Below, piece after piece: positions 6,378 to 40,772 of a stretch of 60,265 bases of DNA. Each line of letters opens with the position of its first letter. The stretch's first letter is position 1. The position numbers and the translations under genes were made by a program. The notes beneath the pieces were generated by a model that had not been told where the DNA came from, searched no databases, and saw only the letters and a program-made list of their open reading frames with translations. The DNA is from Actinomycetales bacterium (GTDB lineage Bacteria > Actinomycetota > Actinomycetes > Actinomycetales > Kineosporiaceae): the NCBI GenBank assembly GCA_012719445.1, contig JAAYAH010000056.1:1-60265 (forward strand). The letters run 5' to 3'.

Positions 6378-8426
6378 GTGCCTGTGGTCCCCGACAACCT
6401 GACCGCCTGCGGTCGCCCCGGTGGTGCCCCGGCCGCCGCCGTCGGGCCGGTCGGCCTGCCCCGGTCCGCCGGGGTTGTCTGCGTCCTCGTCGGCATCGCA
6501 GGGCTCAGCTGCTGGCTGCTCCAACTCGACCCGTTGCGACGGGTCGAGCCCCACCTGCCGCTCATGCGTCCGCCTGCCGCCGCGTGCTGCCTGCTCGTCG
6601 GCGTCGCGCTGCTCTCCCTCGACCGGGACGAGGACCGTGACCGGGACAGCGGCTACGGCTGGCGGCTGCGCCGGCGCGGCACGCTCGCCGCCGGGGCCGC
6701 GGGCCTGGCCGCCGGGGCCAACCTGGTGCTGCTCGGGACCGAGCCGGGAGTCAGCAGGCGCCTGTTCCCGGAGGCGGCGGGGATCGACTCCTTCCCGAGG
6801 CTGATGACCGGCACCGGAGCGGTCGGGGCGTGCCTGGTGGCGGTCGCCCTGCTCACCCTCGGCACCAGGCGGCGATCCGTCGCCCAGCCCTTCGCCCTCG
6901 TCTCGCTGGGTACGGCCTTCGTCGGGCTCCTCGCCGCCCTCTACGACGTGCGCTCGGTGAGCTCGGTCCCGCTCCGCACCATCATGTCCGTCCCCACCGC
7001 GGTGTTCCTCGCCGTCGCGTCCGTCGGGGTGCTCGCGGTGGTGCCCGGTGGCGTCCTGCCCCGGATCGCGGCCGGATCGGGGTCAGGGTCGCTGCTCGCC
7101 CGCCGGCTGCTGCCGGTCGCCGCCAGTCTGCCGCTCATCGGCGGGCTGTGCTCCTACGGCCGGTCGGCCGGATGGTACGGGGCGAGCACCGAGATGGCGC
7201 TCATGGTGATCGCCTCGGTGTCACTGCTGCTGGCCAGCGTGTGGCGGGCGTCGGTGGCGGTGGAGCAGGCCGACGCGGCGTACCGGCGGGCGCAGGAGGA
7301 GCTGCGCGCAGCCGAGGCCAGCACCGCCCGCGAGTTCCAGCGGGTGCTGCTGCCGGCGACCCTGCCCCGGATGCCCGGGATCGAGACCGTGGCCCGCTAC
7401 GTGCCCGCGGGTGACGACGCCGTCGGCGGGGACTGGTACGACGTGCTGCCCCTGCCCCGCGGCGGGGTCGGCCTGGTCATGGGCGACGTCGAGGGCCACA
7501 GCGCCACCGCCGCAGTGATCATGGCCCAGGCCCGCAACGTGCTGCGCGCCTACGCCGCCGAGGGACACTCCCCCGGCGACGTGCTGTCCAACCTCAACCG
7601 GTTCGTCAGCGACCACACCGACTGCCTGATCACCTGCTGCTACCTCCACCTCGACCCCGCCGCCCGGGTGGTCACCGCGGTCACCGCCGGACACCCCGCC
7701 CCGATCGTGCTCACCGACGACGGCGGCCGCCACCTGCCCGTGCACACCGGCCTGCCGCTGGGCGTCGACGCCGCCGAGCGCTACGAGGAACGCACCACGG
7801 TCCTGGAACCACGCTCCCGGCTGGTCCTCTACACCGACGGCCTGATCGACGAACGCTCCCTGATCACCGACCCGGACGAGCTCCTCGCCGTGGCCACCGC
7901 TCTGGACACCGGCACCGCCCCGGACACCGGCACCGCCGCCGCGATCGCCGACGCCCTGGTCCGACGCTCGCCCGACCAGCCGTCCTTCCCCGACGACACC
8001 GCCGTGCTCGTCGCCTGCCTCGACCAGCGGCAGCCCGACGACACCCCCGGCACCGCGACCAGGGTGCTGGCCTCGGCCCCCGCCGCGGCTCCGGCCGCCC
8101 GGCGCTTCGTCCACGACGTCCTCACCGGCTGGGGCCTGACCCCGCTGCAGGACGTCGCCGAACTGCTGGCCAGCGAACTGGTCACGAACGCCATCCTGCA
8201 CACCGGCGGCGAGGTCCGGCTCACCCTCGCCCAGCCCGGTCCGGACACCCTGCGCATCGGCGTCCACGACGACAGCGACCGCCCGGCTCGGATCGGCTCC
8301 CCGCGTCCCGACGACATCGGCGGCCGCGGTCTGACCATCGTCGACGCCCTCGCCGACGGCTGGTGGATCGATCCCTCCCCTGCCGGAGGCAAGACCGTCT
8401 GGCTCGAGCTCACCGGCAGGAGCTGA
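6378..8426 (+). CDS. Membrane-bound PP2C/SpoIIE phosphatase with C-terminal anti-sigma-type kinase domain
   Basis: About 680 residues. The N-terminal 310 residues hold about eight transmembrane helices, then a short coiled-coil linker (QEELRAAEASTAREFQRVL). The SpoIIE phosphatase domain follows (about 320-540) with metal-binding aspartates in GGDWYD, GDVEGHS, YTDGLID and DDTAVLV. A HATPase_c_2 domain occupies about 565-682, with N box ELVTNAILHT and G boxes VHDDSDRPA and GGRGLTIVDALADGWW. Such proteins act in partner switching: the phosphatase dephosphorylates an anti-anti-sigma factor and the kinase domain phosphorylates one. The GTG at 6384 fits the AGGGGG better than the one at 6378. Ends 10 bp from a convergent helicase gene. 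Confidence 0.88.
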   Translation: MPVVPDNLTACGRPGGAPAAAVGPVGLPRSAGVVCVLVGIAGLSCWLLQLDPLRRVEPHLPLMRPPAAACCLLVGVALLSLDRDEDRDRDSGYGWRLRRRGTLAAGAAGLAAGANLVLLGTEPGVSRRLFPEAAGIDSFPRLMTGTGAVGACLVAVALLTLGTRRRSVAQPFALVSLGTAFVGLLAALYDVRSVSSVPLRTIMSVPTAVFLAVASVGVLAVVPGGVLPRIAAGSGSGSLLARRLLPVAASLPLIGGLCSYGRSAGWYGASTEMALMVIASVSLLLASVWRASVAVEQADAAYRRAQEELRAAEASTAREFQRVLLPATLPRMPGIETVARYVPAGDDAVGGDWYDVLPLPRGGVGLVMGDVEGHSATAAVIMAQARNVLRAYAAEGHSPGDVLSNLNRFVSDHTDCLITCCYLHLDPAARVVTAVTAGHPAPIVLTDDGGRHLPVHTGLPLGVDAAERYEERTTVLEPRSRLVLYTDGLIDERSLITDPDELLAVATALDTGTAPDTGTAAAIADALVRRSPDQPSFPDDTAVLVACLDQRQPDDTPGTATRVLASAPAAAPAARRFVHDVLTGWGLTPLQDVAELLASELVTNAILHTGGEVRLTLAQPGPDTLRIGVHDDSDRPARIGSPRPDDIGGRGLTIVDALADGWWIDPSPAGGKTVWLELTGRS

Positions 8427-13082: not shown

Positions 13083-14492
13083 ATGGACACCCACCGCCTG
13101 ACGGCGTCACGGCCCAAGGGCCGGCTGCGCCGGACCCGTGACCGCCTCCGCCGGCTCGCCCTCGGGCGGGGGCGGACGTTGTGGCATCCCGCCCAGTTCG
13201 GCGTCGCGGCCCCCACCGCGCTGACGCTCGTCGGCACCGTCCTGCTCATGCTGCCGGTCGCCGCGCGCAGCGGCCGGAGCGATCCGTCGACGGCGTTGTT
13301 CACCTCGGCGTCGACGGTCTCGCTGACCGGCTTCGCCGTCGTGGACACGGGTACCTACTGGAGCCCGTTCGGTCAGGCGGTGCTGCTGCTCCTGATGGAG
13401 GTCGCGGGCCTCGGTGTGATGGTCTTCGCCTCTCTGCTCGGCCTGCTGGTCATGGGCAGGCTGGGGCTCCGGTCCCGGCTGACGCCCTGGACCGACACGA
13501 CGACGATCAACTCGCAGCAGATCATGGTGGTGATCGTCGGAGTGGTCCGGATCGCGCTGGCGGTCCAGGCCGCCGCCTGGGCCACGCTCACCGCGCGGCT
13601 CTGGCTGAGGTACGACATCCCCTTCGGCAGGGCCGTCTACGAGGGGCTGTTCCACGCCGTCTCCGCCTTCACCAACGCCGGGATCAGCCTGTGGCCGGGG
13701 GACCCGATCCCGTACACCGACGACCCGCTGATCCTGCTGCCCCTCGCGATCACCCTCGTCGTCGGTGGCCTGGGGTACCCGGTGCTGCACGAGGTGTTCC
13801 GGTCCCGCGGACCGCAGGGCTGGTCGCTGCACACCCGGCTCAGCCTGGTCGTGACGGCGATCCTGCTCGTCCTGGGACCCATCGCGGTGATCTTCACCGA
13901 GTGGGACAACCCCGACACCCTCGGCGCCCTCGAGCCGGCACACCGGGCGCTGGCCGGCTGGTTCAACGCGGTCTCCTCACGATCGGCCGGGTTCGCCGGC
14001 TTCGACTACGGGGAGGCGGAGCCGGCCACCCGGTTCACCACGATCATTCTGATGATCATCGGTGTGGCGAGCGGGAGCACCGGGGGCGGGCTCAAGGTGA
14101 CCACCGTCGCCGTGCTCGTGCTCGCGGTCCACGCCGAGGCGCGGGGGAGGGACGACGTCGAGGCCTTCGGGCGGCGGATCTCGCCGGCGACGGTGCGGCA
14201 GGCGCTGGCCATCGGGATGGCGGCGACGCTGGTCCTCGCGGTCGCGACGTTCGCCCTGCTGGAGATGACGACGCTCGACCTGGAGACCGCCCTGTCCGAG
14301 ACCACGGCGGCGTTCTCGACCGTCGGCCTGTCGACCGGCGTCGTCGCGCAGCTCCCCGGGGCAGGCCAGGCCGTGCTGGTCCTGCTCATGTACCTCGGGT
14401 TCGTCGGGCCGATCACCCTGGCCAGCATCATGGCGCTGCGCCACACCCGGCGTTCCTACACCTACCCGGAGGCCCGCCCGATCGTCGGCTGA
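13083..14492 (+). CDS. TrkH/KtrB family potassium uptake channel subunit
   Basis: 469 residues, four repeated M1-P-M2 units. The four pore-loop filters are visible: STVSLTGFAVVDTG (about 78-92), SAFTNAGISLW (about 198), SSRSAGFAGFDYG (about 300) and TAAFSTVGLSTG (about 410), each keeping the central glycine. It forms a K+ (or Na+/K+) channel dimer sitting on the KtrA ring. Starts 5 bp after ktrA, so the pair is one operon. The 3' end of the gene, including the stop codon, is repeated once in tandem just downstream with drift. Confidence 0.92.
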   Translation: MDTHRLTASRPKGRLRRTRDRLRRLALGRGRTLWHPAQFGVAAPTALTLVGTVLLMLPVAARSGRSDPSTALFTSASTVSLTGFAVVDTGTYWSPFGQAVLLLLMEVAGLGVMVFASLLGLLVMGRLGLRSRLTPWTDTTTINSQQIMVVIVGVVRIALAVQAAAWATLTARLWLRYDIPFGRAVYEGLFHAVSAFTNAGISLWPGDPIPYTDDPLILLPLAITLVVGGLGYPVLHEVFRSRGPQGWSLHTRLSLVVTAILLVLGPIAVIFTEWDNPDTLGALEPAHRALAGWFNAVSSRSAGFAGFDYGEAEPATRFTTIILMIIGVASGSTGGGLKVTTVAVLVLAVHAEARGRDDVEAFGRRISPATVRQALAIGMAATLVLAVATFALLEMTTLDLETALSETTAAFSTVGLSTGVVAQLPGAGQAVLVLLMYLGFVGPITLASIMALRHTRRSYTYPEARPIVG

Positions 14493-30700: not shown

Positions 30701-32137
30701 GTGACCACCTCCTCGCGTCCCCCCACCGCTCCCCGCCCTCCGGCGGGCACCAGAGCGTCCGGCTCCGGGCGCAAGGGGTCGCGGGCCGACCGGCCCGCGT
30801 TCCGCTGCGCCGAGTGCGGCTGGACGACGCCGCGCTGGGTGGGTCGCTGCGGGGAGTGCCAGGCCTGGGGCACGGTCGAGGAGGTGGGCGACCGGCCGGT
30901 CGGGCTGACCGTCGCCCGCACGGTGCCCTCCCCCGCCGTCCCGATCGCCGACGTGACCGCCGAGGCCGCCGCCACCTGGCCGAGCGGCGTCTCCGAGCTC
31001 GACCGGGTGCTGGGCGGCGGGCTGGTCGGCGGGGCCGTCGTCCTGCTCGCCGGGGAGCCGGGGGCGGGAAAGTCGACGCTGCTGCTCGACGTCGCCTCCC
31101 GGGCGGCGCAGCAGGGGCGGACGGTCCTCTACGTCACCGGGGAGGAGTCCGCGGCCCAGGTGCGGCTGCGGGCGGAGCGGATCGGGGCGCTGCGGCCACG
31201 GCTGCTGCTCGCCGCGGAGACCGACCTGGCGACCGTCCTCGGTCACGTCGAGCAGACCCTGCCGGACCTGCTCGTCGTCGACTCGGTGCAGACGGTGGCC
31301 AGCGACGCGGTCGACGGCGCGCCCGGCAACGTCAGCCAGGTGCGCGAGGTCGCGGGCTCACTGATCCGGGTGGCCAAGGCGCGGGGCATGACGACGGTCT
31401 TGGTCGGGCACGTCACCAAGGACGGCGGGATCGCCGGGCCGCGGGTGCTGGAGCACCTGGTGGACGTGGTGTGCCACTTCGAGGGCGACCGGCACTCGCG
31501 GCTGCGGCTGCTGCGGGCGGTGAAGAACCGGTACGGGCCGACGGACGAGGTGGGCTGCTTCGACCTGACCGACACCGGGATCACCGGCCTCGCCGACCCC
31601 AGCGGGCTGTTCCTGTCCCGGCACGCCGAGCCGGTCCCGGGGACCTGCGTGACGGTCACCCTGGAGGGCAGGCGGCCGCTGCTCACCGAGATCCAGGCGC
31701 TCGTCGCGCCGAGCGCGCTGGCCCAGCCGCGGCGGGCCACCTCGGGGCTGGAGTCGGCCCGGGTGGCGATGGTGCTGGCGGTGCTGGAGCGCCGGGCGCG
31801 GATGCGGCTGAGCGACCGGGACGTCTACACGGCGACCGTCGGCGGGGTGCGGGTCGGCGAGCCGTCGGCGGATCTCGCGGTCGCCCTGGCGGTGGCCAGC
31901 AGCGCCTACGACCGGCCGCTGCTGCCCGGGGCGGTGGCCGTGGGCGAGATCGGCCTCGCGGGTGAGGTCCGTCACGTGACCGGGGTGGGCAGGCGGCTGG
32001 CCGAGGCCGCCCGGCTGGGGTTCACCACCGCGGTGGTTCCCACCGGGGCAAGTGTGCCCGTCCCGGAGGGGATGCGGGTGATCCAGGTCGCGGACCTGCG
32101 GACAGCGCTGTCCCGGGCGACCACCCCACCGGAGTGA
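30701..32137 (+). CDS. radA: DNA repair protein RadA (Sms)
   Basis: 478 residues. Order of parts: zinc finger with Cys36, Cys39, Cys50, Cys53 (CAECG, CGEC), RecA-like ATPase with Walker A GEPGAGKST, the family-specific KNRYG motif (VKNRYGPTDEVG), and a C-terminal Lon-protease-like domain (about 320-470). RadA is a branch-migration helicase acting with RecA in recombination. GTG start without a ribosome-binding site; a TAGGGT lies 8 bp upstream, so the transcript may be leaderless. It is followed by disA, as in many actinobacteria, but 368 bp apart, so disA has its own promoter. Confidence 0.96.
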   Translation: MTTSSRPPTAPRPPAGTRASGSGRKGSRADRPAFRCAECGWTTPRWVGRCGECQAWGTVEEVGDRPVGLTVARTVPSPAVPIADVTAEAAATWPSGVSELDRVLGGGLVGGAVVLLAGEPGAGKSTLLLDVASRAAQQGRTVLYVTGEESAAQVRLRAERIGALRPRLLLAAETDLATVLGHVEQTLPDLLVVDSVQTVASDAVDGAPGNVSQVREVAGSLIRVAKARGMTTVLVGHVTKDGGIAGPRVLEHLVDVVCHFEGDRHSRLRLLRAVKNRYGPTDEVGCFDLTDTGITGLADPSGLFLSRHAEPVPGTCVTVTLEGRRPLLTEIQALVAPSALAQPRRATSGLESARVAMVLAVLERRARMRLSDRDVYTATVGGVRVGEPSADLAVALAVASSAYDRPLLPGAVAVGEIGLAGEVRHVTGVGRRLAEAARLGFTTAVVPTGASVPVPEGMRVIQVADLRTALSRATTPPE

Positions 32138-32505
32138 GGGCGACCCGCACAGGTGCCGGTGCCCCGGCGCCGGAGTGGGGGCCTGGCCCCGCCGGAGCGG
32201 TGAACTCGCCCCGCCGGAGTGAGATCTCGGCACCTGCCCGGCCACGTTTCCCCGTTACGGGTACGGGTATCTTCGCGATCCGCTCGACGGAACCCCGGTC
32301 CGGCAGGGGATGATGGGACATGCGTTGTGCTCACGGCGGGACAGGCGACCGCGGATCGCGCCATGCGACGCGTTCGTCGCACACCGCGCGTGACTTCCCG
32401 ACCCGATCAGTAGACTTGCGGTGATCTGCTGTGACGGCAGCGTCCTTTGGACGGCGCAACTCGCCGCGGATCATGATCGATGTCCGCCGAGCGGGGGGTC
32501 AACCC
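32138..32505 (+). other. 368-bp intergenic region between radA and disA
   Basis: The first 100 bp repeat CGCCGGAG-type segments and carry a GGTGCCG/CGGCACC pair that may form the radA terminator. A stress-sigma promoter lies at 32246-32270. A second candidate -10, TAGACT, is at 32411-32416. No gene is seen. An in-frame extension of disA to 32431 (ATG at 32473) is possible but lacks support. Confidence 0.5.
32246..32270 (+). promoter_or_regulatory. SigB/SigF-type promoter upstream of disA
   Basis: GTTT (32246-32249), a 15-bp spacer, then GGGTAT (32265-32270): an exact match to the actinobacterial general-stress sigma consensus (GTTT-N15-17-GGGTAT). Transcription would start near 32278, about 230 bp before the disA GTG. 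Confidence 0.65.
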
Positions 32506-33588
32506 GTGGCCACAGAGCGCTCCGCAGAGGAGATGCTGCGAGCCACCCTTGCCGCTGTCGCGCCCGGCACCGAGCTGCGTGACGGCCTGGAACGCATCCT
32601 GAGGGGACGCACGGGGGCGCTCATCGTCCTCGGCTACGACAAGCCCGTCGAGGAGATCTGCACCGGGGGGTTCCCGCTCGACATCGAGTTCTCCGCCACC
32701 CGGTTGCGCGAGCTGGCCAAGATGGACGGCGCCATCGTCATGGACCGGGAGATCAGCCGGATCGTGCGGGCCGCCGTCCAGCTCGTCCCGGACCCCTCGA
32801 TCGAGACCAGCGAGTCCGGCACCCGGCACCGCACCGCGGAGCGGGTGGCCAAGCAGACCGGGCACCCGGTGGTGTCGGTCAGCCAGTCCATGCACATCGT
32901 CGCGCTGTACGTCGCGGGGCGCCGGTACGTGCTGGAGGGCTCGGACGCCATCCTCGCCAAGGCGAACCAGGCGCTGGCCACCCTGGAGCGGTACAAGGCC
33001 CGGCTGGACGAGGTCACCGGCACCCTCTCCGCACTGGAGATCGAGGACCTGGTGACGGTCCGGGACGTGTCGATCGTCGTGCAGCGGCTGGAGATGGTGC
33101 GCCGCATCTCGGAGGAGATCGCGCACTACGTCGTCGAGCTGGGCACCGACGGCCGGCTGCTGGCCCTGCAGCTCGACGAGCTCATCGGCGGCGTCAGCCA
33201 CGACCGCGAGCTGGTGATCCGCGACTACCTCGACGCGGCGCGGCGCGAGCGGAGCATGGTCGACGTGCTCACCGACCTCGCCGACGTCCCGGCGACGGAA
33301 CTGGTGGACCTCACCGCGATGGCCAGGGTGCTCGGTTTCACCATCACCAACGACTCCCTGGACGGCGCGGTCAGCCCCAAGGGCTACCGGCTGCTCAACA
33401 AGGTCCCCCGGCTGCCCGGCGCCATCATCGAGCGACTGGTGGACCACTTCGGCGATCTGCAGAAGCTGCTGGCGGCCAACCTCGACGACCTGATGACCGT
33501 CGAGGGCGTCGGCGAGCAACGCGCCCGTGCCGTCCGCGAGGGCCTCTCCCGCCTCGCCGAGTCCAGCATTCTCGAACGCTACGTCTGA
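32506..33588 (+). CDS. disA: DNA integrity scanning diadenylate cyclase DisA
   Basis: 360 residues from the GTG at 32506, preceded by AGCGGGGGG at a good distance and matching the length of mycobacterial DisA. The N-terminal DAC domain (about 10-145) carries the catalytic DGA (KMDGAIVM) and the RHR motif (GTRHRTAER). A helical spine follows, then a C-terminal HhH DNA-binding domain ([22 protein letters not shown], about 325-350). It makes c-di-AMP from two ATP and is inhibited by branched DNA, in keeping with its neighbour radA. c-di-AMP commonly controls K+ uptake, and a KtrAB pair is encoded elsewhere in this window. Confidence 0.96.
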
Positions 33589-34471: not shown

Positions 34472-36757
34472 TCAGGCGTGCCGGGAGATGCCGTTGTACT
34501 TCTCGAAGATGTGGTAGAGGGCCATCCGTCGGCCGGCGTGCAACTCCGCCACGTCGTTCCATCCCTGGTACCGGCGCAGGATCTGGAAGACCTCCGACTC
34601 GGTGTAGTCCAGCGCCATGGGCCTCATGTCGGTCTCCCCGTCGGGCGAGTTGGAGCCCCCGGGTTTGCCGTCCGCGCCCCACAGGTGAATCAGTGCGACG
34701 GTCTGCAGGGCGAACTCCTCGTCCTGGACCTGTTTCCACATGTCGTAGAGGTCGCTGTCGTTGTCGGGGTCGAAGGTGCGGATCGGTCCGGTGACGTAGC
34801 CACGCTGGATGCAGTGGTTCCAGGCCCGGATCGCGGCGTTACCGGTGATCTGGGCGATCCCGGTCGACGGGTCACGTACTCCGCCCGCTTCGCACACGTC
34901 GCCGAGACCGCCGGCGTGGCACAGCTCGACCAGGGCGTCCTTCCCCTCGTCCTCGATCCCGATGTGCCGCATCTCCCAGTAGACCGTGGTCTGGATCAGC
35001 GCCTTGCGCATGTCGTACCTGCGCGACAGGTTCGTGATGAGCTCGTCGTGCTCGACGACGGCGGTGTTGAAGCAGCCCAGGTGCGTGTACCTGAGCAGCC
35101 CCCCGTCGTTCGGGAACCCGATCGACTCCATGTACTTGCCGATGTCGAGGCGCAGGGCGTCGACGAAGCCGCAGTCGAGCCGGGTGTCGGGGACGAGCCG
35201 GCGGGGCGGGTCGAAGGTGTTCTGTCCCCGGTCGCGTCCGGAGGCGATGCAGTTGTCGATCTCGATGGCGCCGTCCCCTGATCCGACCGTGCGGGTGACG
35301 AACTGGTCGTAGGCCCAGTCCTGCGGGAGCGGGTATCCCAGGTTCCCGGAGTACCCGGAGCAGAGGTCGGCCACGAAGCTCGCCGTCGAGTGCCCGGCCG
35401 CCGCGATGCGGGAGCAGACGTTGCGCGGCCCGTAGACGCCGACCAGGTAGGGATCGCCTGCGTCGGCCATCGAGTCCTCGATCCCCTTGAAGTGCGGGAG
35501 GACGTTCGAGGTGACCTCGCCGTCGAGGGCGTCGAAGTCCACCGCGAAGAAGATCCGGGTCCCGTTCCGGAACCCGTGGTCCTTCGCGGCGTTCATCGCC
35601 GCGTACCCGGCGGCCCTGCCCAGCGCGTAGGAGAAGCAGGACGCGTCGTTGCTGACGGTCTGGTAGATGGGGAAGCAGCGCAGCCCCTGCTCGGCGATGA
35701 CGGCCAGTTCGCCCGGCTGGATCATCTTCTCCGGGAGCCTGATCGGGTTGACGCAGGTGAGGTACCGGCCCACCACGGAGATCCCCTCGGCCTTCAGGGC
35801 GGCGGCCCTGGCCGGGGTGATCCGGGTGATCCCGTCGCAGGCCGTGCCCTTCCTGGTCTGGTCCCCGTAGGAGACCAGCAGCGACGCCCAGGTCGCGAAG
35901 TCCCCGGTGCCGTTGACGGGCAGGCCGACGAAGGACTGGAACGCGCGGACCTCCTCGGCGAGCCGGGACCCGAACGACCGGGTGAAGGCCACCGGCTGCC
36001 CGTTGAGGACCATCGCCCCAGAGAACAGGTTCACCCACGTGCCCAGCGATCCGGAGGAGACGGTCCTGGCCTTCAGCCCGGTCCTGGTCGCCGGGCCGAA
36101 CACCCCGTTCGCCACCCCGTCGACCATCCCGAGCTCGTACTGGATCGCCAGGAGCAGGGACTTGGCCACATCGCGGGAGTGACGGCCGTCGCACGGGATG
36201 ACGAAGAAGTCCCTGCGGTCCAGGTAGCGGCCGTTCAGCCACTGCTGGACGGCGCGGACGGCCTCGGTCCCCGAGCCGACGGTGACGTAGGCGTCCATGG
36301 TCAACAGGCCCTTGAACACCTTCGGGGTCAGGCCGCCGCCCGGATCGGTGTCCACCACTCCCATGTCGGTCTTCAGATCGAGAACCCCGGCCTCAACCCC
36401 CGAGCCGTAGACCCCCTCGAAATGCCCGATGACCGTCCCGCCCACGTCTGCCTCCGCGACGAAGACCCCGCCGCGGTAGCCCTTGCAGTAGAGGGCTGCC
36501 TGGATGATGCGGCAGAAGTCCTCGGAGGGGACCGTGCTCCGGTTCAGCACCGGGTACCTCGATGTGAGGGTGGACAGCGTCGTCGGACCGAAGTTGTCGG
36601 AGAGCGCCGTGATCCCCAGCTCCCACTGCAGTGCCCGGGTGAGGGCGTGCATGACGCTCCACCCGGTGCGCCCGTTCTCCTCGACGGTCATACCGATCCG
36701 GTCTCCGTAGACGGAGTTCACGAACCGCTGCGCCTGTCTCACCATGGGGTCGCCCAC
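34472..36757 (-). CDS. DUF1906 (Rv2525c-type glycoside hydrolase-like) multidomain protein
   Basis: 761 residues; the GTG at 36757 has AAAGGA 6 bp upstream. Residues 1-300 contain repeated peptidoglycan-binding-like units (ALQWELGI..NFGPTT and AIQYELGM..GVFGPATRTGL share one pattern). Residues about 305-505 form a DUF1906 TIM barrel related to GH25 (GISVVGRYLTC, FFAVDFDALD, VGVYGPRNVC, DLCSGYSGNLGYP, IEIDN). The last 220 residues are an unassigned helical domain. No signal peptide, Tat motif or transmembrane helix is visible, odd for a wall-acting enzyme. A hairpin separates it from the DUF2690 gene upstream. Role is probably in wall remodelling or as an exported effector. Confidence 0.78.
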   Translation of the reverse strand: MGDPMVRQAQRFVNSVYGDRIGMTVEENGRTGWSVMHALTRALQWELGITALSDNFGPTTLSTLTSRYPVLNRSTVPSEDFCRIIQAALYCKGYRGGVFVAEADVGGTVIGHFEGVYGSGVEAGVLDLKTDMGVVDTDPGGGLTPKVFKGLLTMDAYVTVGSGTEAVRAVQQWLNGRYLDRRDFFVIPCDGRHSRDVAKSLLLAIQYELGMVDGVANGVFGPATRTGLKARTVSSGSLGTWVNLFSGAMVLNGQPVAFTRSFGSRLAEEVRAFQSFVGLPVNGTGDFATWASLLVSYGDQTRKGTACDGITRITPARAAALKAEGISVVGRYLTCVNPIRLPEKMIQPGELAVIAEQGLRCFPIYQTVSNDASCFSYALGRAAGYAAMNAAKDHGFRNGTRIFFAVDFDALDGEVTSNVLPHFKGIEDSMADAGDPYLVGVYGPRNVCSRIAAAGHSTASFVADLCSGYSGNLGYPLPQDWAYDQFVTRTVGSGDGAIEIDNCIASGRDRGQNTFDPPRRLVPDTRLDCGFVDALRLDIGKYMESIGFPNDGGLLRYTHLGCFNTAVVEHDELITNLSRRYDMRKALIQTTVYWEMRHIGIEDEGKDALVELCHAGGLGDVCEAGGVRDPSTGIAQITGNAAIRAWNHCIQRGYVTGPIRTFDPDNDSDLYDMWKQVQDEEFALQTVALIHLWGADGKPGGSNSPDGETDMRPMALDYTESEVFQILRRYQGWNDVAELHAGRRMALYHIFEKYNGISRHA

Positions 36758-37448: not shown

Positions 37449-40400
37449 TCAGGACAGCGACCGGCAGGTGACGAGCCCTGCCACGGCCCGTTCCTCCTCG
37501 GCACGGTCCCCGATGCTCCTGGCGAGGTCGAGGGCTCTGGTGAACAGGTCGACGGCCTCGGCGACGACCGCTCCCCTGCCGACGGCCTGGGCACCGCCGA
37601 CGGCCGGAACACCGCCTGCCCGTTCGACCAACAGCTCCCCGAGGTCGTTCGAGGCCGTTGCCAGCACCTCCCGGTGACCGGTGCGTTCCGCGAGGTCCAT
37701 GGCCCCGCGCAGTCCCGTGGCGGCCAGCTCGTACTGTCCTCCCCGCCGACGGGCACCGGCGAGGAGGACGGAGGCCTTCAGCCGGGCGAGCACGTCCCCG
37801 CCGCCGGAGGAGAGGGCCAGCACCGAGGTGAGCTGATCGACGGCGTCGCCGACCCGACCGGCGGCCATGAGGACGCTCCCGAGGCTCGTCCTGGCCGACA
37901 CCTCCAGCTCGGTGTTGGCCAGGTCGAGGGCGAGGTCGAGCGCCTGCCGGTAGCAGGTCTCCGCCGCCGTGACGTCCCCGGCCGTCTGGTGGACCCGGCC
38001 CAGGCTGTTGAGCACCTTCCCCTCGTGGGTGCGGTGTCCCGCCCCGCGGACCAGGTCGAGCGCCTCCCGGTGGTGGGCCACCGCCGAGGCGTACTCACCG
38101 CGGCGCATCTGGACCATACCGAGGCTGCCGAGCAGGATGCCGAGCGAGCTGGGGTTGCCGACCTCCCGGCACAGGTCGATGGCCTCGCGGAGATGGGCGT
38201 ACGACCGGTCGAGGTCCCCGATGCGCTCGTAGATGTGCCCAATGTTGTTGAGCGCGACCACCTCGCCGTCCCGGGAGCCCGCGGCCCGGTTCAGGTCCAG
38301 GGACCGCCGCAACGACGCGATCCCCTCCTCCGGGTGCCCGGTCAGCGCCTGGAGGGTGCCGAGGTTGCCCGCCGCCCTCGCCCGCGACCACGGGTCGGCC
38401 GCCTCGGCCCCCAGGTCCTCCGCCCGGCGGAGGCAGTCCTCCGCGGTGTCGTAGTGCCCGTACTGCTGGTGGATCAGGGCGAGGTCGACGAGGCCGTGCG
38501 CCTGGGCCGGCAGGTGCCCGAGGTCGCCCGCCGCCCGCACCCCCAGGTCGTACAGCTTCAGCGCGTCGGCCAGGTGACCGCCGCCTTCGAGATAGCGGGA
38601 CATCGCCATCACCAGCCGGACGACGTGCACCGCCCGGCCGCGCCGGGAGGCGAGTCCGACGAGACCGACGGACGCGGGCAGCCCGGCGTCGAACCAGGCG
38701 AGCGCCTCGTCGCGGTTCTCCGGGTGCCACGGCGACGAGGGCTGATCGGCCCTGCCGGGGGCGGGGGGCTGCGGGGACGCCTGCGGACCGGACGGCGTCG
38801 CCAGGTCGAGTCCGGGCAGCCGCCGGAGCTGTCCCGAGCCGTGCAGGACCGCAGCGGCGGCGTCGGCCATGGCGACGGAGACGTCCAGGAGCCGGTCGAG
38901 TGCCGCGTCGCGTTCCTGCCCGGACTCCTGGAGGACGACGAGCTCCCCGGCGTAGGCCCGGAGCAGATCGTGCATGCCGAACCGCCCGGAGCCCGTCGGC
39001 TGGACGAGATGCGCCTCGGTGAGCGCGCGGAGCGCCTGGTCCGCCCGGGTGGGGTGGACCCCGGCGAGGGCCGCCGCGCCGTGCACGTCGAGGTCGGGGC
39101 CGGGGTGCAGGCCGAGCAGCCGGAACATGCGCGCGACGTGGGGTGCGAGGTTCCGGTAGGACCAGGAGAGGACGGCGCGGACCGCGGTCCGGTCCTCGAC
39201 GTACCGGCCCAGCACGTTCAGGCGGTCGTGCTCGTCGCGCAGTTCCGCCACCAGGTCGGCGAGGCTCCGGTCCTCGCGTGCCCGCGCGAGCTCCGCCGCG
39301 ACGCGGAGCGCCAGCGGGAGGCGGGCGCAGTGGACGGCGAGGGCGTCGGCCTGGGCAGGGTCCTCGTCGACCCGGCGGCCGAGCAGGGAACGCAGCAGGA
39401 CCATGGACTCGGCGGCGGACATGAGCCGGAGGTTCACCCGGTCCGCGCCCTCCCGCACCACCAGCCCGGTCAGCGTCTCCCGGCTGGTGACCAGCACCGT
39501 GGACGGCCCGCTGCCCGGCAGCAGCGGCCTGACCTGCTCCTCCGACGACGCGTTGTCCAGCACCACCAGCATCCGACGGCGGGCGATCTCGGTGCGGTAG
39601 CGGGCCGCCCGGTCGGCCGCGCCGGAGGGGATGTCCTGGTGACGGATCCCCATCGCCCTGAGGAACCCCTCGAGGACCTCGCCGGGGTCGACGGGGTGGG
39701 CGGGGTCGAACCCCCGCAGGTCGACGAAGAGCTGTCCGTCGGGGAACTCCCCGGCCCCGGCGGCTCGATGGGCCCAGTGGACGACCAGGGCCGTCTTGCC
39801 GACCCCCGCCGTCCCGGTGACGACGCACAGCACGGCGCCCCCGTCGCCGTGGCCGGGGAGCAGGTCGTCGAGGAGTGCGAGTTCCGCCGTCCGACCGCTG
39901 AAGACCCTCGGGCCGATGGGGAGCTGGGCGGGAACCGCCCCGCCCGGGCGCTCCCCCGGCCGCGTCGTCTTCGGCCGGACGGGTTCGCGCACGGCCTCCG
40001 AGGTCATCCGGAGCAGGGATCCGTGGAGCTCGCGCAGCCGGGCACCGGGGTCGACGCCCAGGTCCTCGGCCAGCCGGACACGGGTCTCCTCGAAGCAGTT
40101 CAGCGCCTCAGGTACCCGGCCGGTCGCCGCGAGGGCGCGCATCAGAGCGCCGGTGAGCGGTTCGACCAGGGGATGGGCCCGACGCAGGGCGGTGAGCCGG
40201 GTGACCACCTCGGCGGCGTGCCCGAGGTCGACGGCGAGGTCGGCCCAGGCGATGCAGGCGTCCAGGTGCTCCTGGACGAGCGTCCGGCGCAGGTCGGCGG
40301 CCCAGCGCCCGGGCAGACCGGCGAGGGGGACGCCGTCGCACATGGCGATCGCCCCGTCGAGGACCTGGTACCTGGCCCGCACGTCCCCGGCCCCGCGCGC

Positions 40401-40772
40401 CGCCACCACGAGCCGCCGGAACTCGTGGACGTCGACGGCGGACCGGTCGAGGGTCACCACGTACCCGCCCGTCCGGCGGGCGACGGTCACCGGACCGGAC
40501 CCGGGGCCGGGTCGGGGGACCCCGCGCAGCAGTCCGCGCAGCCGGGACACGTGGCTGTACAGGATCTCCGGGACGTCGCCGGGCGGCTCGTCGCCCCAGA
40601 CCGCCTCGGCGAGCCTGCGGTCGGAGACCACCGTCCCGGCGTCCATCAGCAGCGAGGCCAGCAGGATCTGGGGTTTCGGTCCGCAGGGCGGCGGATCCGG
40701 CGTACCGGCGATCCGCAGCTCACCCAGCAGCCTGAACCGGTCCACGTTCCTCCCACGCACCGTCGACCGCAC
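37449..40772 (-). CDS. AfsR/SARP-family regulator (OmpR-type DNA-binding, BTAD, NB-ARC, TPR)
   Basis: About 1107 residues. Order: winged-helix DNA-binding domain (about 10-95, LLASLLMDAGTVVSDRRLAE), BTAD (about 100-245), NB-ARC ATPase (about 285-530) with P-loop GTAGVGKTALVVHW and RMLVVLDNASSEEQV, then about eight tetratricopeptide repeats (from about 690) such as ALNNIGHIYERIGDLDRSY. These STAND-type activators bind direct repeats and switch on secondary metabolism or development. No biosynthetic cluster adjoins it; the nearest genes are wall-related and mutY. GTG at 40745 (VDRFRLLGE) is a possible later start, since GGGAGG lies just before it. Divergent from mutY. Confidence 0.88.
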   Translation of the reverse strand: MRSTVRGRNVDRFRLLGELRIAGTPDPPPCGPKPQILLASLLMDAGTVVSDRRLAEAVWGDEPPGDVPEILYSHVSRLRGLLRGVPRPGPGSGPVTVARRTGGYVVTLDRSAVDVHEFRRLVVAARGAGDVRARYQVLDGAIAMCDGVPLAGLPGRWAADLRRTLVQEHLDACIAWADLAVDLGHAAEVVTRLTALRRAHPLVEPLTGALMRALAATGRVPEALNCFEETRVRLAEDLGVDPGARLRELHGSLLRMTSEAVREPVRPKTTRPGERPGGAVPAQLPIGPRVFSGRTAELALLDDLLPGHGDGGAVLCVVTGTAGVGKTALVVHWAHRAAGAGEFPDGQLFVDLRGFDPAHPVDPGEVLEGFLRAMGIRHQDIPSGAADRAARYRTEIARRRMLVVLDNASSEEQVRPLLPGSGPSTVLVTSRETLTGLVVREGADRVNLRLMSAAESMVLLRSLLGRRVDEDPAQADALAVHCARLPLALRVAAELARAREDRSLADLVAELRDEHDRLNVLGRYVEDRTAVRAVLSWSYRNLAPHVARMFRLLGLHPGPDLDVHGAAALAGVHPTRADQALRALTEAHLVQPTGSGRFGMHDLLRAYAGELVVLQESGQERDAALDRLLDVSVAMADAAAAVLHGSGQLRRLPGLDLATPSGPQASPQPPAPGRADQPSSPWHPENRDEALAWFDAGLPASVGLVGLASRRGRAVHVVRLVMAMSRYLEGGGHLADALKLYDLGVRAAGDLGHLPAQAHGLVDLALIHQQYGHYDTAEDCLRRAEDLGAEAADPWSRARAAGNLGTLQALTGHPEEGIASLRRSLDLNRAAGSRDGEVVALNNIGHIYERIGDLDRSYAHLREAIDLCREVGNPSSLGILLGSLGMVQMRRGEYASAVAHHREALDLVRGAGHRTHEGKVLNSLGRVHQTAGDVTAAETCYRQALDLALDLANTELEVSARTSLGSVLMAAGRVGDAVDQLTSVLALSSGGGDVLARLKASVLLAGARRRGGQYELAATGLRGAMDLAERTGHREVLATASNDLGELLVERAGGVPAVGGAQAVGRGAVVAEAVDLFTRALDLARSIGDRAEEERAVAGLVTCRSLS

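Follow-up and report, generated by a model that had tools for sequence, protein, structure and literature searches.

The radA–disA region

The window analyzed here, that is, the whole stretch of DNA of 60,265 bases, contains the disA gene (32506..33588, + strand), which encodes a diadenylate cyclase with DAC, DisA-linker, and HhH domains, recognized by the NF010009 model (530 bits, against a cut-off of 201), with a GTG start codon at 32506. This is the only DisA copy found in the genome. The upstream neighbor, radA (30701..32137, + strand; TIGR00416), is separated from disA by a gap of 368 bp, in which two promoter-like elements can be recognized, referred to here as P1 and P2.

The P2 site, GTTTCCCCGTTACGGGTACGGGTAT (32246..32270, + strand), is a candidate promoter of the SigB/SigF type, with the structure GTTT (−35), 15 nucleotides, and GGGTAT (−10), located 108 bp past radA and 235 nt ahead of disA, and pointing at the latter. 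Promoters of this type, as described in the available parts of two sources (PMC8346170, PMC9847131), have a GTTT (or GNNT) −35 element and a GGGTAT-like −10 element, with 14–16 nt between the GTTT and the GGG, and P2 has this form. An earlier note on this DNA had drawn attention to the fit with the consensus and had placed the motif approximately 230 bp before disA, and both observations hold. P2 is the sole exact match to GTTT-N13-17-GGGTAT in the window, against a mean of 0.00 in 100 shuffles. When the dinucleotides of the gap were shuffled, a forward site of the GTTT-N14-16-GGGTAY type was obtained in 8 of 20,000 sequences, and the GGGTAT version in 5 of 20,000. The loosened pattern GNTT-N14-16-GGGWAY recovers three sites in the window, and the two besides P2 (at 13330 and 41889) are intragenic.

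The P1 element is the hexamer TAGACT (32411..32416, + strand), which appears to be the −10 hexamer of a conserved, probably housekeeping, promoter of disA. The position of the P2 motif implies a start of transcription at about 32278–32281, and thus a predicted leader of about 226 nt (32280..32505, + strand), whereas a transcript from P1 would have a leader of about 82 nt. The long untranslated leader proposed in the earlier note would therefore exist only in the transcripts that start at P2.

The same gap (32138–32505) contains seven GATC words in its 368 nt, in comparison with a window mean of 2.3, with six or more being found in 4.6% of the stretches of the same size. The words GATCA and TGATC flank the TAGACT hexamer, and this cluster could be either the site of a regulator or the product of chance.

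The motif class and the sigma factors of the genome

The genome has 5.4 Mb in 283 contigs, and the gene positions were assigned by a simple, purpose-made gene caller based on codon usage. Three exact GTTT-N14-16-GGGTAT sites are found in it, with none in the reversed control, and all three are intergenic, facing disA, an operon that contains a DUF3618 gene, and the gene of an RsbW-like ATPase. The slightly broader pattern GTTT-N14-16-GGGTAY has 13 sites (one in the reversed control), of which 10 are intergenic and followed by a co-oriented gene within 300 bp, while the other three are intragenic. Shuffled upstream DNA leads to an expectation of 0.47 upstream sites genome-wide, in comparison with the 10 observed (Poisson P about 1e-10), although the shuffle and area estimates, the latter with upstream-type DNA as 6.3% of the oriented bases, are based on five stretches with 115,592 bases (the window and four others), two of which come from the motif-rich contig C80.

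The products of the genes downstream from these sites, as classified by Pfam, include, in addition to DisA, a hemerythrin, the DUF3618/BrkB operon, the RsbW-like ATPase, a small DUF6131 protein, an AI-2E transporter, an iron-containing redox enzyme, and a protein of the CobW/HypB/UreG type. Two targets have no Pfam match, and one of the 10 upstream sites faces a predicted ORF of 43 aa with no Pfam match. When up to one mismatch is permitted, 32 sites are found in the genome, against five in the reversed controls, and, in the 28 of the 30 one-mismatch loci that were available, only 3 of the 21 sites other than GGGTAC have a co-oriented gene within the next 300 bp. The one-mismatch sites without GGGTAC are thus mostly not placed as promoters, and the motif class is narrow. 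A control pattern, TTGT..GGTGAY, was found upstream in 2 of the 30 matches that were classified, from a total of 47, but this pattern is biased toward coding DNA, and the shuffle and area estimates are therefore the better controls. The GTTT-N14-16-GGGTAY class behaves as a promoter class in this genome, and several of its targets are of the stress type.

The genome also encodes two sigma factors of the SigB/SigF/SigG type that score above the curated TIGR02980 cut-off, on contigs C80 and C194, so that a cognate type of sigma factor is present together with P2. The sigma gene on C194 closely follows an RsbW-like gene, the RsbW matches of which fall below the curated cut-offs. Contig C80 (43 kb), which carries 3 of the 13 GTTT-N14-16-GGGTAY sites, has genes for the sigma factor, an RsbW-like ATPase, a STAS protein, an ANTAR/PAS protein, a ferritin-like protein, ChaB, and hemerythrin, as well as the DUF3618/BrkB operon, and looks like a general-stress region. 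Neither sigma gene has a motif site immediately ahead of it in the surrounding stretches that were covered. Given that the motif class is enriched upstream of genes, and that sigma factors of the appropriate type are encoded, a general-stress promoter for disA is probable.

The earlier note also referred to a fusion of a SpoIIE-type phosphatase with an anti-sigma kinase in the window, of the kind that controls such sigma factors. This gene is real (6384..8426, + strand), with a SpoIIE phosphatase domain and an anti-sigma-kinase-like HATPase_c_2 domain identified by Pfam, and a weak match to RsbA_anti_sig, below the cut-off (39 vs. 210 bits). It is located about 24 kb from disA, however, both sigma genes are on other contigs, and nothing was found that links the fusion to disA or to either sigma factor.

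Conservation of the two elements upstream of disA

DisA was present in 24 of the 28 genomes of the search for relatives, including the source genome. The family set consisted of 13 genomes, that is, the present one and 12 others from outside its genus, in which the named members are Kineosporia species. The broader comparison drew on an order-wide and a class-wide sample of disA (96 and 117 matching genomes, respectively), which left out thirteen and three clear matches, respectively, as well as weak matches to the HhH domain alone. Two fragment loci with no disA start were dropped, and loci in which the match began past residue 30 were skipped. The 228 upstream regions were reduced to 220 by the removal of eight duplicates, and included a few from Firmicutes and other non-actinobacteria.

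The TAGACT hexamer, which the earlier note had named as the rival start, is a conserved promoter-like element upstream of disA, to judge from the comparison of sequences. The pattern TA[GC]A[CA]T starts 12–95 nt before disA in all 13 family genomes, and is found no more than 120 nt before the gene in 101 of the 220 regions, in comparison with 5.9 regions on average when the mononucleotides are shuffled. The hexamer thus has the TAnnnT form of a −10 element, and is conserved near the disA start codon. No TTGACA-like −35 element can be recognized at a distance of 16–19 nt from it, as the best candidate in the window matches 2 of 6 positions and none of the 13 family genomes has a better one, and the site was not listed by a general-purpose promoter scan. 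In six genomes of one genus (Kineosporia, according to the named records), TAGACT starts only 12–13 nt ahead of the start codon of disA, so that the mRNA predicted for these genomes would have no leader, or almost none, unlike that of the window, with its leader of about 82 nt.

A site of the P2 type is absent upstream of disA in all 12 family relatives, and the exact GTTT-N14-16-GGGTAT motif is found in none of the 220 distinct regions other than that of the window, so that the conservation in relatives, which the earlier note had proposed as a check and the lack of which it had named as a refutation, was not observed. The loosened motif is not enriched either, with two forward matches in the 220 regions, against three, four, and zero in three controls, and the weak GNNT..GGGTAY matches in other disA regions are scattered in position. 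A conserved stress promoter of disA is rejected on this basis. A loose GCCT-N17-GGGTAY sequence, which is not of the GTTT type, ends 6 nt before the disA start codon in three relatives that belong to a single genus.

The motif itself appears to have a wider distribution. Exact sites number 60 in the 13 family genomes, against eight in the reversed controls. In a separate observation, 12 of these 60 sites are a single word, GTTTACGGCRTGGACTACCAGGGTAT, or a near variant of it, in six genomes, and, in the two loci checked, this type of word lies inside the 16S rRNA gene, on the opposite strand, which makes it a trap for motif counts. The homologues of the hemerythrin (26–39% identity) are preceded, at a distance of 62–111 nt, by a GTTT- or GGTT-N14-16-GGGTAY site in all four of the relatives that have such a homologue, although three of the four belong to one genus (two genera in total), and a second copy in one of these three genomes lacks the site. 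The motif is therefore likely to serve as a functional type of promoter in this family. By contrast, no GTTT-type site was found at the loci of the DUF3618 homologues in 9 of 9 relatives, although this is a weak control, because the loci include no more than about 1.5 kb of upstream sequence, and an operon that starts beyond this point would be missed. A loose site of the GGTT type is present in one of these loci, some 1.35 kb upstream. Single targets of the motif may thus come and go between lineages, and, as the DUF3618 target, too, appears to be subject to turnover, the lack of a site in other genomes is not in itself proof that the site is inert. The disA site would then be specific to its lineage, but not inert for that reason.

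Readings of P2 and comparison with known systems

As P2 is absent from the relatives, whereas the P1 pattern is retained throughout the family, P2 can at most be an added, lineage-specific promoter, rather than the ancestral one. The reading that is favored here, with somewhat better than even confidence, is that P2 functions as a SigB/SigF-type stress promoter of disA, beside the shared housekeeping promoter. In this arrangement, P1 would provide the housekeeping start common to the family, whereas P2 would be read by one of the two SigB/SigF/SigG-type sigma factors. Stress would free this sigma factor from an RsbW-like antagonist, and the firing of P2 would add disA transcripts with the longer leader, which would raise the levels of DisA and, in turn, of c-di-AMP, presumably resetting K+ and turgor. 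The link between c-di-AMP production and the general stress response, the central proposal of the earlier note, is thus retained in part: the enrichment of the motif class upstream of genes, several of them of the stress type (10 of 13 sites, vs. an expectation of about 0.5), and the two sigma factors are in its favor, while the lack of conservation of P2, together with the conservation of TAGACT, is not.

The principal alternative is that P2 is a chance match, silent in the cell, and that disA is transcribed only from TAGACT, perhaps with read-through from radA. The absence of the site from the relatives and the rest of the 220 regions is consistent with this, as are the retention of TA[GC]A[CA]T in every family genome and the small number of exact sites in the genome, and, among the 10 upstream sites, P2 is also the most distant from the gene that it faces (235 nt, in comparison with 22–165 nt for the others). 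A silent P2 is nevertheless considered rather unlikely, given that only about half a site would be expected by chance in all the upstream DNA, where 10 are seen, and that the DUF3618 target, within the limits of that weak control, also seems to turn over. It is very improbable that P2 is active but that its product is a short RNA of its own, or a small peptide encoded in 32280–32420, rather than the disA message, since the two short ATG ORFs of the leader that could favor this (27 codons, ending at 32393, and 34 codons, ending at 32424) have negative codon scores (−0.17 and −0.31 per codon, vs. +0.49 for disA) and are not coding-like, and the leader has no terminator-like site, no Rfam family at the gathering score, and no unusual fold (z-score of 0.28). 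The only match to an RNA family model with E < 1 in the leader, that of the animal microRNA mir-667, was rejected, at 19 bits against a cut-off of 70.

One of the near counterparts of P2 among the systems compared is SCO1089p of Streptomyces coelicolor, a promoter of the SigB-homologue type (SigB/SigL) with the sequence GTTTCC-N13-GGGTAT, which shares with P2 the GTTT −35 element, the GGGTAT −10 element, and the spacing (PMC8346170, in the part available). The name disA is not found in the accessible portion of the S. coelicolor set of SigB-type promoters, the table of which uses SCO numbers (PMC8346170). The sigma dependence of P2 is predicted from its sequence. P2 is probably a SigB/SigF-type promoter on a target for which no such promoter was found in the literature searched on the Actinobacteria.

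A precedent for stress-sigma control near radA exists in Bacillus, where radA is under SigB, and the idea is thus not new in kind. In the ctsR-mcsA-mcsB-clpC-radA operon of B. subtilis, disA comes next after radA. The core SigB set of this species includes ctsR, mcsA, mcsB, clpC, and radA, while disA had no match in the available part of the source (PMC7824861). The likeness is that a general-stress sigma factor transcribes the neighborhood of radA (PMC7824861, in part), but P2, unlike the B. subtilis operon, sits between radA and disA, and would act on disA rather than radA, and the ClpC-type gene of the window is separate, 24 kb away (57935 onward). According to another study (PMC9820435), SigM, an envelope-stress factor of the same species, also induces disA and radA. 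As proposed for P2, this places disA under an alternative, stress-linked sigma factor, but the sigma family and the promoter type are different.

No DasR-like site, with up to three mismatches to a DasR core sequence, is present in the radA–disA gap, while the window as a whole has 25 matches, vs. 14.65 expected. In Saccharopolyspora erythraea, DasR is reported to act as a repressor of disA, and, in S. coelicolor, it binds to DNA ahead of radA/disA (PMC11076491, PMC11323494). These cases are similar in that disA is under transcriptional control in the Actinobacteria, but DasR is a repressor rather than a sigma factor. Beyond DasR, this control is little described in the parts of the literature searched.

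DisA is described as the sole DAC-domain protein of the Actinobacteria, and a disA mutant of Streptomyces is salt-sensitive, with c-di-AMP controlling the osmotic balance, while the level of DisA is reported to remain constant through development in S. venezuelae (PMC10117811, in the portion available). The same portion of this review of c-di-AMP and osmotic stress in Streptomyces gave no match for the expression or transcription of disA, and its passages on sigma factors do not refer to the gene (PMC10117811). The accessible parts of the open-licence literature searched did not describe any control of disA by SigB/SigF in the Actinobacteria, which is no proof of absence.

A direct general-stress promoter, if confirmed, would allow the cell to raise c-di-AMP within its stress program, and would show that such wiring can be gained by a single lineage. 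The chances appear to be even that one lineage of the Kineosporia family has made DisA a member of the SigB/SigF general-stress regulon through the acquisition of a promoter in the radA–disA gap. General stress itself would then raise c-di-AMP in an actinobacterium, and the membership of c-di-AMP synthesis in this regulon would evolve lineage by lineage.

Potassium transport is a classic output of c-di-AMP, and the window that contains disA also encodes a TrkH-type K+ uptake protein (PF02386; 13083–14492, + strand). The only stress-type site near this gene is a loose GCTT-N15-GGGTAC sequence at 13330, inside its coding sequence. Two further genes of the window, both on the − strand, encode a large protein with Rv2525c-like glycoside-hydrolase-like and peptidoglycan-binding domains (34472–36757) and, near disA, a 1098-aa regulator with BTAD, NB-ARC, and TPR domains (37449–40745), which is SARP/AfsR-like by its domain order.
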